Positions 5,502-32,553 of a stretch of 42,608 nt of DNA are shown in pieces. The DNA lies in the NCBI GenBank assembly GCA_030065025.1, contig JASJDY010000001.1, positions 1-42,608 on the forward strand, in the 5' to 3' direction. The stretch's first letter is position 1. Each line of letters begins with the position of its first letter. The notes under the pieces are model-generated. The model saw only the letters and a program-made list of their open reading frames with translations. It did no database searches and was not told where the DNA came from. Source of the DNA: Planctomycetota bacterium. Its GTDB lineage: Bacteria > Planctomycetota > PLA2 > JAEUHO01. A program made the translations under genes and the position numbers.

Positions 5502-5586
5502 CTCGCGCTCTCGCTCGCTTACGCGCTCGCGCGTCGGTGGATCGCTCCATTGCGCCCGAAGGTCGAGCGCGAGCGGGAGCGCGAGC
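5501..5586. repeat. Hexamer-based inverted repeat, element 1
   Basis: Arms 5501-5518 (GCTCGCGCTCTCGCTCGC) and 5569-5586 pair at 17 of 18 positions, the exception being a possible G-U pair, around a 50-nt loop. Both arms are runs of degenerate hexamers (GCTCGC; GAGCGC/GAGCGG). The element starts on the last base of the rsmE stop codon. It could act as a rho-independent-like structure, but there is no T-tract. It has the same architecture as the elements in the pseudopilin leaders. Confidence 0.8.
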
Positions 5587-5614
5587 GCGACGACCCACCA
5601 TGTGCCGCGTCCGC

Positions 5615-16600: not shown

Positions 16601-16610
16601 GGCACGCTGA
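13599..16610 (+). CDS. Membrane-anchored TPR protein with C-terminal concanavalin-like domain
   Basis: A 1,003-residue protein with two N-terminal membrane helices (about 7-33 and 48-66), a Pro-rich linker, a TPR region (about 310-760, units such as 'TEALHYFDAAIDRDARYGPALVGKGDAL' cut at family spacing), and a beta-sandwich (about 775-1003) resembling LamG/concanavalin or DUF1080-like folds: 'LYLNDN'-type 'VYLNDNLVLRDN' and 'LWIGGYSTDTEPFDVIVSDIRVV'. It overlaps both neighbours by one to four bases, so it is an integral member of the pseudopilus operon. A role like that of TPR pilotins or scaffolds (PilF/TadD) is inferred; the lectin-like end suggests contact with polysaccharide or with the similar domain in the GspH-like pseudopilin. 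Confidence 0.8.
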   Translation: MMPILDAILTGSLVLAGAFGTFVIFLFLGLIALPVTAALDKSLGKEKALLLYAVALLAFTLFVLAPEGPTGKPGRAGRENDVRVEELVMEGNPFLRADFDHDAARNSFRPFSDTRPLPPVVLETPPWVALDFALPPTVPGPAPGSRQVLRGTLPKLAAGDGSAIAEIPDAVFSDYQRKPEDVYDWVIGPDGRPYYVYILAIGDAAGMHREGTPKYDELKWVLKDQTEGFDDLRVNYAMVGPEGTASKYLEDLQILDRKLKGRTDKLAREESERGWHLRRSVANLYSEALKRQGYRPTAEVEAVRPINPEKLRRAAKEMAEVGATGKEARGGWRRAIHLLEVALEEVRANRGDEERAEVLLEVLDAQRALRDEQAVLRTLSEYMRTAPRSAQARTWLGQLHLQGMNLPTEALHYFDAAIDRDARYGPALVGKGDALTFMGDHREALKSYSRGSDDEARLRTAHAQLRLGKLSEARGNAESILTRDPTNMGATHLRACVLYTTGDLETARAAFEQVAVSPDAHELRAQACYNLGLTCIRLGQQDAALAAFDACAKALQQGSTTGPTPDETVSPSFGRALVAFAGGDEANLREQLDRGRREAPGAAYIELFAGMLASLERNDASAIRALDGALRRAPGYAELDGWLGKTYLRLGELEAETAASPEETAETFERAVAFANRAADRESSADRRAYAARLREVLVRIGAQHLPKKQRYGRALTAVNKILDNSLLREQPAALTLAGYCYFQLEDYEECIRKLQQVLDVVPDEDENEWKLWRDYAEQALTSVKHWRSLEEKLVSFKGAKLGREWETDQSHAVRVVVEEGDLLFKGESNHDGRRDNPTVLVSTGSLFARETFESVTLTLKIPRSVRGRATNNITFGIEVIAASRSGSKKKRPGLGIFYDKNKVAVRVQGGQEKKWKEGNVTRLDPEQAWPEGEEVVVRFVREDAQRGTMAVYLNDNLVLRDNVSTFKLTRGKAALWIGGYSTDTEPFDVIVSDIRVVRRKAR

Positions 16611-17272
16611 TGAGCAACCGCAACCGGCAACGCGGCTTCTCGTTCATCGAGATCCTGATCGTGATGGGCATCATCTCGGTGCTCGTCGGCGGCGTGATCG
16701 TGGCGATCAACATGTGGACCGAGAAGGGTCCCGAGTTCGCGACCAAGAACACGATCACGAAGGTCAAGGCGTTCGTGGAGAACTGGAAGCAGACGTACGA
16801 GATGTACCCGCCCGGGGACGTCACCCGCATCGCCGCAGTGGCCGGGGCGGGCAAGAAGGCCCAGGCTCCAGGCAACGACGTGAATGCCGGCATCGAAGCC
16901 CTCTACCAGGCGCTCTACTGGCCTGGCTTCAAGGGCACGGAGCTCACGCAGGACGAGATCAGCAACAACGACGACGACAAGCTGCGCAAGAAGATCGGCA
17001 AGGCGAGCGTGGAGCTCATGGAGATCCGCGACGCCTGGGAGAACCCGCTCGTGTACTTCAGCCGCGACGACTACGGCAAGTACCAGGACGGCGCCAGCTA
17101 CTACAACGGCCTGGGCGACTCCGTCTCGCCGAAGCCCTGGAAGAACAAGGACGGCACGTTCGTGAACCCGGACACGTTCCAGATCTTCAGCATGGGCCCG
17201 GACGGCGAGCCGAACACGGCCGACGACATCACGCCCTGGCCGCGGAGTGATGAAGACGAGGCAGAGGAGTAG
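16610..17272 (+). CDS. Major pseudopilin, GspG-like
   Basis: A 220-residue type II secretion major pseudopilin. A very short leader (MSNRNRQRG) precedes the cleavage site G|FSFIEILIVMGIISVLVGG, with Glu at mature position 5 and a hydrophobic alpha-helix. The C-terminal half has the GspG hallmark: 'WENPLVYFSRDD' followed by the calcium loop 'SMGPDGEPNTADDITPW'. Prepilin peptidase should cleave after the Gly and N-methylate Phe1; the protein then assembles into the pseudopilus that pushes substrates through a secretin. The ATG overlaps the previous stop (TGATG). Unlike the next three pseudopilin genes, its leader has no repeat element. It is larger than classical GspG (about 140 residues), with an insertion between helix and calcium loop. 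Confidence 0.92.
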   Translation: MSNRNRQRGFSFIEILIVMGIISVLVGGVIVAINMWTEKGPEFATKNTITKVKAFVENWKQTYEMYPPGDVTRIAAVAGAGKKAQAPGNDVNAGIEALYQALYWPGFKGTELTQDEISNNDDDKLRKKIGKASVELMEIRDAWENPLVYFSRDDYGKYQDGASYYNGLGDSVSPKPWKNKDGTFVNPDTFQIFSMGPDGEPNTADDITPWPRSDEDEAEE

Positions 17273-17276
17273 AGCC

Positions 17277-18587
17277 GTGCGCCACCCTGCCACTTCCACC
17301 TGCACTTCCACTTCCACCTCCACTTCGCTCGTCACTGGACGCGCGAGTGGAAGTGGACGTGGAAGTGACCGTGATACTGGGAGTGGCCGCCTCCGGCGGC
17401 AGCTGGGCTTCTCCTTCATCGAGCTCGTCGTCGTGATGGGGGCGATGGGGGTCCTGCTGGGTCTCGCCGTCGGCTACATCGGCAACATCGGCCAGGCCAC
17501 GTTCGTGGTGCAGGCCAAGGGCATGCTCTCCGAGACCGCCTACCGCTGTCTCAGCGCCAGCGTCGGCGACCGCCGCGCGATCTTCACGCTGCGCCGGGCC
17601 GAGGACAAGGACGGCGACCTCGTGCTGCGCATCGGCGCCGCCGTGGCGCGTCCCGTGCTCACGCACCAGTTCGAGACGCTCGACTTCGCGAGCGAGGCAC
17701 GCGCGCCGAACGTCTCGGGTGAGGTCGAGCTCGTGAAGGACGGCGGCCGCGTGGGCAACTGCGCGAAGTTCGGCGCCAACGCCCACCTCGCGTTCACGCC
17801 CTCGAGTGTGTTCGCCATGACCGAGGGCATCGAGCTCGACGTGTGGGTGAAGCCCGAGCCCGGTGTGCGCCAGATGGCGCTCGTCGAGGGCGCCGAGAGC
17901 TACGGCGTCTACCTCGTGCAGGCCGGCGAGAGCGACGCGTACGACGTCAAGCTGCGCCTCAAGCTGCGCAAGATCAGCGAAGGCGAGCGCACGGCGCCCT
18001 TCGACAAGCCGTTCGAGACCAAGGGTGCGCCCGTCGTCGCCGACGGCCGCTGGAGTCGCATCCAGGTCGCCTTCGACGGCCTCGACGCCACGATCCGTGT
18101 GAACGGCCTCGAGGCCTACGAGCCCGACGGCAAGCGGCGCGGTCCCGGCGGCGCCATCCAGGGCAACGAGCTGGTCGAGCAGGTACAGCGCATCGTCGTG
18201 CCGCCGAGTGGCCTCGCGGGCGTGACGATCTCCTCGCCGACCGCGCCCTACCGCGGTCACATGGACAGCTTCCGGCTCATGGGCGTCTTCCGCTCGGAGG
18301 AACTGGAGCGCGACCTGCCCGGCCCGCTCGAGGTCATCTACCCGACCATCCCGCTGCGCGTGGTCTTCCGCAACGGCGGCCTCGATCCGGACGAGCACAG
18401 CGGCGACCAGATCATCCGCCTGCTCGACACGCGCAATCCGGACGACCCGCCGCTGCGCCTGACGATGGGCATGTACGGGACGGTCAGCTCCGTGTTCGAG
18501 CAGCCCGGCGAAGGCGGCCCCGACGCGCGCAATCCGCGAACCAGGCAGAGCACGGATGCGTCAGAGGGTGAAGGGGGTAAGAAGTGA
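17277..18587 (+). CDS. Minor pseudopilin (GspH-like) with LamG-type domain
   Basis: A 436-residue prepilin with the cleavage motif G|FSFIELVVVMGAMGVLLGLAVG, Glu5 present. The mature part has a GspH-like start ('VQAKGMLSETAYRCLSASV'), then a LamG/concanavalin-like sandwich (about 160-350: 'GVRQMALVEGAESYGVYLVQ', 'DGRWSRIQVAFDGLDATIRVNG'). The start is GTG 17277, placed 7 nt after a strong GCAGAGGAG site; an upstream in-frame ATG (17250) lacks this and lies inside the previous gene. No ATG, GTG or TTG occurs in frame between 17277 and the cleavage site, so the 45-residue leader, largely encoded by hairpin element 3 as (Thr-Ser)n then (Gly-Ser)n, must be translated. Prepilin peptidase would discard it. 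The LamG fusion suggests the pseudopilus tip binds glycan or a partner protein. Confidence 0.85.
   Translation: MRHPATSTCTSTSTSTSLVTGRASGSGRGSDRDTGSGRLRRQLGFSFIELVVVMGAMGVLLGLAVGYIGNIGQATFVVQAKGMLSETAYRCLSASVGDRRAIFTLRRAEDKDGDLVLRIGAAVARPVLTHQFETLDFASEARAPNVSGEVELVKDGGRVGNCAKFGANAHLAFTPSSVFAMTEGIELDVWVKPEPGVRQMALVEGAESYGVYLVQAGESDAYDVKLRLKLRKISEGERTAPFDKPFETKGAPVVADGRWSRIQVAFDGLDATIRVNGLEAYEPDGKRRGPGGAIQGNELVEQVQRIVVPPSGLAGVTISSPTAPYRGHMDSFRLMGVFRSEELERDLPGPLEVIYPTIPLRVVFRNGGLDPDEHSGDQIIRLLDTRNPDDPPLRLTMGMYGTVSSVFEQPGEGGPDARNPRTRQSTDASEGEGGKK
17291..17367. repeat. Hexamer inverted repeat in GspH-like leader, element 3
   Basis: Arms 17291-17313 and 17345-17367 are complementary at 20 of 23 positions. 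Units are CACTTC/CACCTG/CACCTC on the left and GTGGAA/GTGGAC on the right. The left array extends to 17326. It lies 14 nt after the GTG start and is read in frame as Thr-Ser/Thr-Cys and then Ser-Gly. Confidence 0.88.
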
Positions 18588-19972
18588 TGCCCCGCAGTAA
18601 CACCTGCACTTGCACGTGCACCTGCACTCCGACTGCATCTTGCCGTTCGAGTGCAAGTGCACGTGCAAGTGCAAGTGCAAGTGCAAGTGCACGCCGGCAC
18701 AGCCGGCGTCAGGGCTTCACGCTCCTCGAGATCCTCGTCGCGATGGCCATCTTCACCGTGCTCGGTTCGATGGTCGTCTACTTCATGCGCCAGAGCCTCG
18801 ACATCTTCTATCGGGGCACGCGTGAGTCCGGTCAGCTCGATCGCATGGACGCGGTCCTGCCGCAGGTGCGCGGCGACCTCGCCAGCCTCACGATCCCCTC
18901 CGACTTCACGCCGCCGCCGCCGCCGCCCACGGAGGACGAGCTGCAGCGCAGCGGCAAGACCGCGCCGCCGCCGCCCCGGCCTGTGCGCATCCGGCTCCGC
19001 TCCGGCCACGTCAAGCTCCGCAACGTCGGTGACGCGGCCTTCAAGGACTACCCCTGCGCCTACCTCGCGTTCGTGACGACCGATGCCAGCGAGTGGTCCG
19101 ACAAGTTCAAGCGCCGCGCCGGCGACAGCCCCAAGGGCGACGGCGAACTGAAGGACCTCACGCCCGAGACCGTCGTTGGCGGTGATCGCGAGACGCGCTA
19201 CCGGCCCACGGGCGGTCTCATGGAGGTGCTCTGGATCGCCGTCCCGAGCGACCTCATGAACCCGCCGGAGAAGGACCAGGTCTCCTACCCGGGCATCCTC
19301 ACGCTCTACCGCGGCTTCCGCACGCCCATCGGCGACCCCGAGAAGAGCCTGCTGGTGCCGGAGAACTTCGACGAGCGCGACGAGATCCTCAAGGCGTGCC
19401 GCCCCGTCGCGACGGGTCTGATCCACTTCGGCGCTCGCTGGCGCCGGACGTTCGCGACGGACTGGGAGTCCGAGCTCGGCGTCGGCCTGGGCGAGTCCGC
19501 GCCGTACGTCGGCCCCGTCTGGGACTCCACCCGCGCGCTGGAGAAGGGCTGGCCGCTCCACCGCGGTCCGCAGAGCCTGCCGGATCCGAGCGACGACATC
19601 TTCCCCGCCTTCGTCCAGCTCGAGGCGACGTTCGCCGCCACGACGCAGTTCGGCGCCGGCCGCGGCGAGATGCGTCTCACGGAGCTGGCGGCGGTCGAGG
19701 GGCCGCGCATCAAGGTGAGCGATCCCGACAAGCTGATGCAGCCCGGCCTCGGGCGGCAGCGCTTCCTCAAGGTGAACGGCGAGTGGATGTCGTACACCCT
19801 GCGGGACGTGGACTGGGAGAAGAGCGAGGTGCGTGTGCGCCGCGGCGCGCGCGGCACGAAGAAGGCCGCGCATGCGAGCGGGTCGTGGGTCTACGTCGGC
19901 ACGCCGTCGAGCCTGCAGATGCGCCTGCCCGTCTACCGCGACAAGTACGTGCTGCGGGAGGAGCGGCGATGA
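18587..19972 (+). CDS. Minor pseudopilin, GspJ-like
   Basis: A 461-residue prepilin with G|FTLLEILVAMAIFTVLGSMVVYF, Glu5 present, followed by the GspJ-type 'RQSLDIFYRGTRESGQLDRMDAVLPQVRGDLASL' pattern shown here only in outline (long helix, then Asp-rich register). A Pro-rich insert (about 110-135) and two beta-rich regions follow; the protein is about twice normal GspJ length. The ATG at 18587 overlaps the previous stop and has AGGGGG about 10 nt upstream; GTG 18584 directly before it is an alternative. No other start exists before the cleavage site, so the leader encoded by hairpin element 4, (Thr-Cys)n then (Ser-Ala)n, is necessarily made. It is part of the pseudopilus tip complex by family role. 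Confidence 0.85.
   Translation: MPRSNTCTCTCTCTPTASCRSSASARASASASASARRHSRRQGFTLLEILVAMAIFTVLGSMVVYFMRQSLDIFYRGTRESGQLDRMDAVLPQVRGDLASLTIPSDFTPPPPPPTEDELQRSGKTAPPPPRPVRIRLRSGHVKLRNVGDAAFKDYPCAYLAFVTTDASEWSDKFKRRAGDSPKGDGELKDLTPETVVGGDRETRYRPTGGLMEVLWIAVPSDLMNPPEKDQVSYPGILTLYRGFRTPIGDPEKSLLVPENFDERDEILKACRPVATGLIHFGARWRRTFATDWESELGVGLGESAPYVGPVWDSTRALEKGWPLHRGPQSLPDPSDDIFPAFVQLEATFAATTQFGAGRGEMRLTELAAVEGPRIKVSDPDKLMQPGLGRQRFLKVNGEWMSYTLRDVDWEKSEVRVRRGARGTKKAAHASGSWVYVGTPSSLQMRLPVYRDKYVLREERR
18601..18693. repeat. Hexamer inverted repeat in GspJ-like leader, element 4
   Basis: The clearest copy. Arms 18601-18628 and 18650-18677 match at 26 of 28 positions. The right array of AGTGCA-type units continues to 18693. 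Inside the loop/right arm it shares the 19-mer CCGTTCGAGTGCAAGTGCA (18643-18661) with element 5. A second perfect hairpin, ACGCCGGC-ACA-GCCGGCGT (18691-18709), abuts it before the cleavage-site codons. Confidence 0.92.
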
Positions 19973-20505
19973 CGAGCTTGCTTCTCACCTGCGCTCGCAC
20001 CTGCACCTGCACTGGGATGGCGGACGACCGTTCGAGTGCAAGTGCAAGTGGAAGTGGAAGTGCAAGTGGCGCACGGCTGCGCCGCGCGCAGCAAGGCTTC
20101 TCCTTCATCGAGGTCCTCATGGCGATGAGCGTGCTCATCGTCGGCAGCGTCAGCGTCCTCGGGCTCTTCGCCATCGGTGTGAACCGCATGGTGGAGCGCC
20201 GCGTCGAGGCGCGCCTCGCCGAGGTGCGCCCCGAGATCGACAGCATCCTGCAGACCCGGGTGGACCTGGCCCGCCCGGGCGACATGCCGAAGGGCATCAC
20301 CCGGGAGGAGCCCGTGCTGCTCTCGCGGCGCGGCTACAGCCTCGCCGTCGAGTGGCGCGGCAACCCCTTCAAGAACGCCCCCGGCTATCTGGCGAACGCC
20401 GAGCTGCTCTTCCGCGGGCAGCCCGTCAGGCGCCTCATGATCCCCATCCGCCGCTCCTTCCTGCACCTGAAGGAGCTGGAGGGCAAGGCCGCACCGCCGC
20501 GGTGA
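19969..20505 (+). CDS. Minor pseudopilin, GspI-like
   Basis: A 178-residue prepilin with G|FSFIEVLMAMSVLIVGSVSVLG, Glu5 present, and the small size and early Met-rich helix typical of GspI/PilV. The C-terminus is short and basic with no extra domain. The ATG at 19969 overlaps the previous stop (ATGA) and has GGGAGGAG upstream. An internal ATG at 20017, in the loop of element 5, could give a shorter leader but has no good ribosome site. In both cases the right arm of the repeat is translated as (Ser-Ala)n/(Ser-Gly)n within the removed leader. In classical systems GspI nucleates the GspI-J-K tip; no GspK is seen in this window. Confidence 0.85.
   Translation: MTSLLLTCARTCTCTGMADDRSSASASGSGSASGARLRRAQQGFSFIEVLMAMSVLIVGSVSVLGLFAIGVNRMVERRVEARLAEVRPEIDSILQTRVDLARPGDMPKGITREEPVLLSRRGYSLAVEWRGNPFKNAPGYLANAELLFRGQPVRRLMIPIRRSFLHLKELEGKAAPPR
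19986..20068. repeat. Hexamer inverted repeat in GspI-like leader, element 5
   Basis: Arms 19986-20013 and 20035-20062 are complementary at 21 of 28 positions, the innermost ten bases perfectly apart from one position. Left units are CACCTG/CACTGG-like, right units AGTGCA/AGTGGA. It shares the 19-mer CCGTTCGAGTGCAAGTGCA (20028-20046) with element 4. Confidence 0.85.
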
Positions 20506-32421: not shown

Positions 32422-32553
32422 AACCACAGAGAACACGGAGCGGTCCCCGGACGCCGCCGCGGGCTTCGTGCCTCTTGTCTTGCTCACAGGCCCAAAACGA
32501 ACAACACGGAGCGCTCACCGTCCGCCGGCGTGCGCTCCGTGTTCTCTGTGGTT
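32422..32553. repeat. 21-bp perfect inverted repeat between ntrC-like gene and lexA
   Basis: Arms 32422-32442 and 32533-32553 are perfect reverse complements over 21 bp (core ACCACAGAGAACACGGAG), with a 90-nt loop. A nested 12-bp pair, AACACGGAGCGC at 32503-32514 with 32532-32543, offers an alternative short hairpin using the same right arm. It fills the 150-nt gap between convergent genes and could stop transcription from both sides. The ACCACAGAG...ACGGAG word resembles a repeat widely seen in planctomycete-type genomes (recollection, not checked). Confidence 0.85.

Follow-up and report, generated by a model that had tools for sequence, protein, structure and literature searches.

A degenerate hexamer repeat occupies the leaders of three consecutive minor pseudopilin genes in a 42,608-nt stretch of a Planctomycetota genome (contig JASJDY010000001.1, positions 1 to 42,608; hereafter the window). 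The evidence points to a lineage-specific junction repeat that has expanded in one lineage and is tolerated in pseudopilin leaders that are cleaved off, a reading with a probability of about two in three.

Hexamer palindromes in three prepilin leaders

The pseudopilin genes lie on the + strand in the order G, H, J and I, and consecutive genes abut or overlap by a few bases. The G-like gene, which encodes the major pseudopilin (16610..17272, ATG start at 16610; PF07963 N_methyl, E 4.5e-8), is followed by the H-like gene (17277..18587; PF07963, 23.4 bits over the cut-off), the J-like gene (18587..19972, an open frame with an ATG start at 18587; PF07963, E 2.6e-8) and the I-like gene (19969..20505, ATG start at 19969; PF07963, E 1e-4). 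All four show the pattern of a type III (prepilin) signal peptide, in which a hydrophilic leader ending in Gly precedes a hydrophobic stretch with Glu at position 5, and all four have N_methyl over the cut-off. Prepilin leaders are hydrophilic, variable in length and removed on the cytoplasmic side (review, PMC10191384). The G-like leader, read from the window sequence, has 9 residues and carries no element, as the initial annotation had stated. The H-like leader has 44 residues (17277-17408, from a GTG start at 17277, with an alternative ATG at 17250, to the cleavage Gly at 17406-17408), and the J-like and I-like leaders have 43 each (18587-18715, with the cleavage Gly at 18713-18715, and 19969-20097, with the cleavage Gly at 20095-20097).

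Each of these three leaders holds a hexamer palindrome between start codon and cleavage site, with the sequence and frames that the initial annotation had described. Element 3 (17291..17367) is built of a CAC-array of five units (17291-17323), a core and a GTG-array of three units (17347-17367), element 4 (18601..18693) of a CAC-array (18601-18627), a core and a GTG-array (18651-18689), and element 5 (about 19986..20068) of a degenerate CAC-array (19986-20012), a core and a GTG-array (20036-20068); none is assigned a strand. Their left arms start 18 nt behind the G stop codon (element 3), 13 nt behind the H stop codon (element 4) and 13-25 nt behind the J stop codon (element 5; 25 nt in the count of distances to stops). 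With up to two mismatches, GTGSAAGTGSAAGTG has 23 matches in the window against 0.11 expected by chance, and all 23 fall inside elements 3, 4 and 5. RNA fold z-scores are -7.6 for the H and J leaders and only -2.4 for the I leader, which makes the I palindrome a weak one. Element 4 is the second-longest inverted repeat of the window, with 44-nt arms that are 82% complementary; the longest, at 32422-32553, is intergenic, has 49-nt arms (78% complementary), starts AACCACAGAGAACACGGAGCG and ends GCTCCGTGTTCTCTGTGGTT.

The leader copies read Thr-Ser/Cys and then Ser-Ala/Gly, in the same frame in all three genes. The open frames confirm that no start codon lies between element and cleavage site in the H-like and J-like genes, and translation has to run through the element in both. 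In the I-like gene a second in-frame ATG lies between the arms ('GGG ATG GCG', in the 19969 frame) and could serve as the start in place of 19969. A codon-usage gene caller sets the H, J and I starts past the elements and within the pilin helix, which is too far downstream because the arrays look noncoding to such a caller. Gene callers tend to misplace the starts of such genes in this direction, and automatic annotation may truncate all three.

Elements 4 and 5 had been taken as copies of each other. They do share an identical 19-mer, CCGTTCGAGTGCAAGTGCA, found nowhere else in the DNA examined; its core, CGTTCGAGTGCA, is also common to two unrelated copies (L016 and L031), which leaves direct copying as a possibility only.

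A dispersed family that follows stop codons

The elements belong to a family, (GTGSAA / CACTTS)n, that occupies about 50 or more places, mostly intergenic, in the 3.9 Mb genome of the window (G000), a fragmented metagenome assembly that is 89% complete. The strict pattern GTGSAAGTGSAAGTG has 109 matches there, at more than 35 places, against three in total in 39 other Planctomycetota genomes and none in each of 11 other genomes of the bacterial family. The catalogue of copies draws on the flanks of 34 targeted places, picked by the strict pattern, together with an arbitrary 432-kb sample and the window (475 kb sampled in all), and genes were called with a simple home-made codon-based caller trained on the sample (90.5% coding). 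Array places are those among the matches listed; two C10 stretches, which belong to the targeted set as well as to the sampled one, are counted twice in the count of one- and two-armed clusters and once in the count of distances to stops and starts. Literature searches on hexamer arrays of this kind found none.

Outside called genes, the 5' neighbour of an array on the CAC strand is a stop codon in 33 of 48 cases and a start in 15. CAC-strand arrays no more than 25 nt from a stop or a start, the window excluded, number 18 at stops versus one at a start, and the nearest neighbour on the 3' side is never less than 42 nt from the array. A terminator-like hairpin stands behind the stop at 14 of 20 arrays compared with 59 of 169 control gene ends (p = 0.003), the position and hairpin tests having been framed after inspection of the data. 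The left arms in the pseudopilin operon, 13-25 nt behind the G, H and J stops, obey this genome-wide rule, and since these genes overlap or abut, the post-stop site is here the leader of the following gene. No convincing terminator hairpin was found ahead of the left arms in this operon, and no intrinsic terminators at the three elements. The initial annotation had proposed a dispersed repeat that settles where its product is discarded. This proposal is supported, with the amendment that the genome-wide repeat mainly follows stop codons and that leaders are not its specific site.

Other hexamers also occur at gene junctions. At four places in the nearest congener (G002 L197, L203, L209 and L211) a different hexamer family, GTGAACGTGAACGTG, lies 16-37 nt behind stops, often just past a terminator-like hairpin. 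A six-base GTGAAC array is found in intergenic places of both G002 and the window's genome, several of those in G002 again 16-37 nt behind stops. Post-stop hexamers seem to differ between sister species, and the placement of arrays flush behind stops, with other hexamers in sister species, is a separate and testable regularity. Further intergenic period-6 arrays in the window's genome, such as (GAGCGC/GAGCGG)n, (GGCCGT)n and (CGTTTC)n, occur at 5560-5590 of the window and in L110, L111, L122, L129, L130 and L140, with 16 noncoding arrays in 475 kb.

Elsewhere in the genome, translated copies form (Ser-Thr)n linkers in L017, L023, L025 and L039 and an (Ala-Pro)n linker in L112, and in four of the five the reading frame is that of the leader left arms. 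Leaders and low-complexity linkers, both disposable segments, are the only places where translated copies are kept. In-frame copies probably survive only where extra hydrophilic residues are harmless, and cleavage would make the leader such a place.

The leader copies are unusual in their two-armed form. Among the matches listed, only one arm is seen within 100 nt in 45 of 50 clusters; of the five two-armed clusters three are the leader copies, so that two of the 47 other clusters are two-armed (P 5e-4 for the excess in leaders, a post hoc test chosen after the data had been seen). Occupation of three adjacent junctions has a P of about 0.01-0.03 under random placement of 50-70 clusters on an assumed 3,500 junctions. 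Both the two-armed form and the adjacent occupancy could stem from selection or from local copying between leaders, as hinted by the 19-mer common to elements 4 and 5.

The preferred reading of a tolerated junction repeat can be put as a sequence of steps. A degenerate hexamer, CACTTS on one strand and GTGSAA on the other, has spread to gene junctions, where it typically lies flush behind stops and in many cases follows a terminator-like hairpin. As the pseudopilin genes overlap or abut, a post-stop copy in their operon falls in the leader of the next gene. Because the arrays are whole hexamers the reading frame is kept; their translation gives runs of Thr-Ser/Cys and Ser-Ala/Gly, which are neutral and hydrophilic, and leaves the basic residues by the cleavage site in place. 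Prepilin peptidase would then remove this product, so that selection would not have purged the leader copies. The distribution of copies, their place behind stops, the frames, the confinement to one lineage and the absence of arm covariation are shown directly; tolerance through peptidase cleavage, neutrality and the order of events are inferred.

Relatives and the question of a conserved hairpin

Orthologous leaders in the family vary freely in sequence and in length, from roughly 8 to 45 residues, with fold z-scores spread about zero. The palindrome is absent from all of them except the H leader of G002, a congener about 78-81% identical to the window's genome in J and H. There it is shorter (53 nt, -27 kcal/mol) and in the same frame. 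In the 4.2 Mb of G002, an assembly of 620 contigs that is 70% complete and in which absence elsewhere is not proof, GTGCANGTGCANGTG has only two matches, which are both arms of this palindrome. The G002 J leader lacks the element and shares the basic end by the cleavage site (ARRHSRRQ and ARRQSRRR, each followed by G); the contig ends in J, and the I gene of G002 was not found. The single (GTGSAN)4 match in G002 and a copy in the window's genome (L115) precede the same FNR-like gene. As the copies in the H leader and at the FNR-like gene are common to both, no fewer than two places are older than the split, whereas most copies have been found in the window's genome alone. The H-leader copy would be the oldest of the three, since the nearest congener has one too, and the J copy, perhaps also the I copy, probably came later.

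Another congener, G004, has expanded a different leader of the same operon with a different repeat: in the major, G-like gene the leader contains a tandem repeat of 21 nt that reads Arg-x-Val-Ala-Ala-x-Thr (L073, 2010-2098). This repeat was considered as a dispersed element and set aside: its core 14-mer, with 14 hits in G004, 10 in G002 and 8 in G000, shows no clear excess in G004, which suggests a local tandem repeat.

Could the palindromes form a conserved mRNA hairpin that lowers minor relative to major pseudopilin synthesis, as had also been suggested? When the left arms were compared with a pool of 41 arrays, their own partner was equalled or beaten by 30 (H), 8 (J) and 35 (I) of them. 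The arms of one element match no better than the arms of unrelated copies and show no covariation; their complementarity therefore stems from the shared hexamer family. The relatives' leaders are not specially structured, as those of a structured cis-regulatory RNA would be, and an Rfam search returned only sub-threshold eukaryotic microRNA-like hairpins, dismissed because any long hairpin gives them. The conserved hairpin was rejected as the leading reading on the absence of the palindrome from relatives' leaders, G002 H excepted, and on the lack of arm covariation; the presence of an element in only three of the 20 N_methyl genes of the genome and the expanded major leader of G004 also speak against it.

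A broader role in mRNA is unlikely. Hairpins at the G/H, H/J and J/I junctions would protect the upstream major message or slow minor translation, giving a high major to minor ratio, and REP sequences between genes can act on mRNA in such a way. The stable predicted H and J hairpins (z -7.6), the two-armed form special to leader copies and the sharing of the H copy with G002 are consistent with this role. However, nearly all relatives with the same operon lack the hairpin in the orthologous leaders, the arms do not covary, the I hairpin is weak, G004 expands the leader of the major gene, and the elements lie within translated sequence, where ribosomes would melt hairpins. Distinctly improbable is the more specific proposal that selection favoured compact two-armed junction repeats at three pseudopilin junctions in a row because they tune minor against major subunit amounts. 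In it the cleaved leader would be a site for an RNA signal that leaves the mature protein unaltered, and the H copy would be ancestral, being shared with the nearest congener, which otherwise has almost none of the repeat.

No better placed is the proposal that the CAC arm, which lies right behind a stop and on the coding strand is rich in C and poor in G, is a putative Rho-loading (rut-like) or 3'-end signal that would bring about partial termination between pseudopilin genes. Strand-specific arrays behind stops and hairpins would suit such a signal, but the post-stop hexamer GTGAAC of G002 is not C-rich and G-poor, and the arm in the operon is translated and so hidden from Rho. A role of the extra residues in the protein, such as binding a chaperone, targeting the membrane or setting when cleavage occurs, is very unlikely: the basic end is kept and all leader copies share the Thr-Ser/Cys, Ser-Ala/Gly frame, yet relatives' leaders vary freely in sequence and length, and the identical peptide frame is used in unrelated linkers. 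Errors of assembly or binning in a fragmented, incomplete metagenome-assembled genome are a hardly credible source of the elements, which lie inside intact orthologous operons; the H-leader palindrome also recurs in a related species that was assembled independently (L074).

Comparison with known repeats

Among known repeats the closest kind is the Rickettsia palindromic element (RPE), a dispersed palindromic repeat kept in frame within protein-coding genes (PMC10969869). The three leader elements resemble it as in-frame palindromic repeats inside open reading frames, but in build and placement they are not members. RPEs are ~150-bp sequences found in many unrelated genes, whereas the repeats described here are degenerate hexamer arrays, mostly intergenic and one-armed, with genic copies confined to cleaved leaders or linkers and without a long family-specific sequence. 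Palindromic repeats in coding sequence are thus already known; several adjacent leaders removed by a peptidase offer a clean case of a repeat kept where its product is thrown away. Simple-sequence (hexanucleotide) arrays share the head-to-tail hexamers and the kept frame when translated, but the present arrays are degenerate, strand-specific behind stops and paired as inverted copies in five clusters. Long prepilin leaders, as in T4bP and Streptococcus sanguinis pilins, likewise vary widely in length (PMC10191384) but are not described as made of a dispersed DNA repeat.

Neither an empty site nor a target duplication was found for the elements, which counts against a proven insertion. An origin from mobile elements on phages or plasmids was rejected, element 4 with its flanks having no match in a phage or a plasmid collection.

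REPs are palindromes of 20-50 nt preceded by GTAG (PMC8266576). Together with BIMEs and the TnpA-REP (RAYT) system they resemble the present repeat in being short inverted repeats that are dispersed over many transcripts and sit where genes end, and most of the about 50 clusters do lie between genes, dispersed and in high copy. However, the arrays carry no GTAG-type tetranucleotide, none stands directly ahead of the three palindromes, and most copies are one-armed and so not self-contained palindromes. An assignment to REPs was rejected on these grounds, and one with a RAYT was also set aside, the only candidate gene in the genome being a single weak Y1_Tnp match (E 3e-5; G002 has three). A second dispersed repeat, GTAGGGGCGGCCGGAGG...CGAACGCCCGCCC, often adjoins the hexamer arrays (L009, L011, L013, L020, L027, L028 and others). 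It is REP-like, with a GTAG start followed by a G+C-rich imperfect palindrome, and is also fused in frame in the linkers of L017 and L025.
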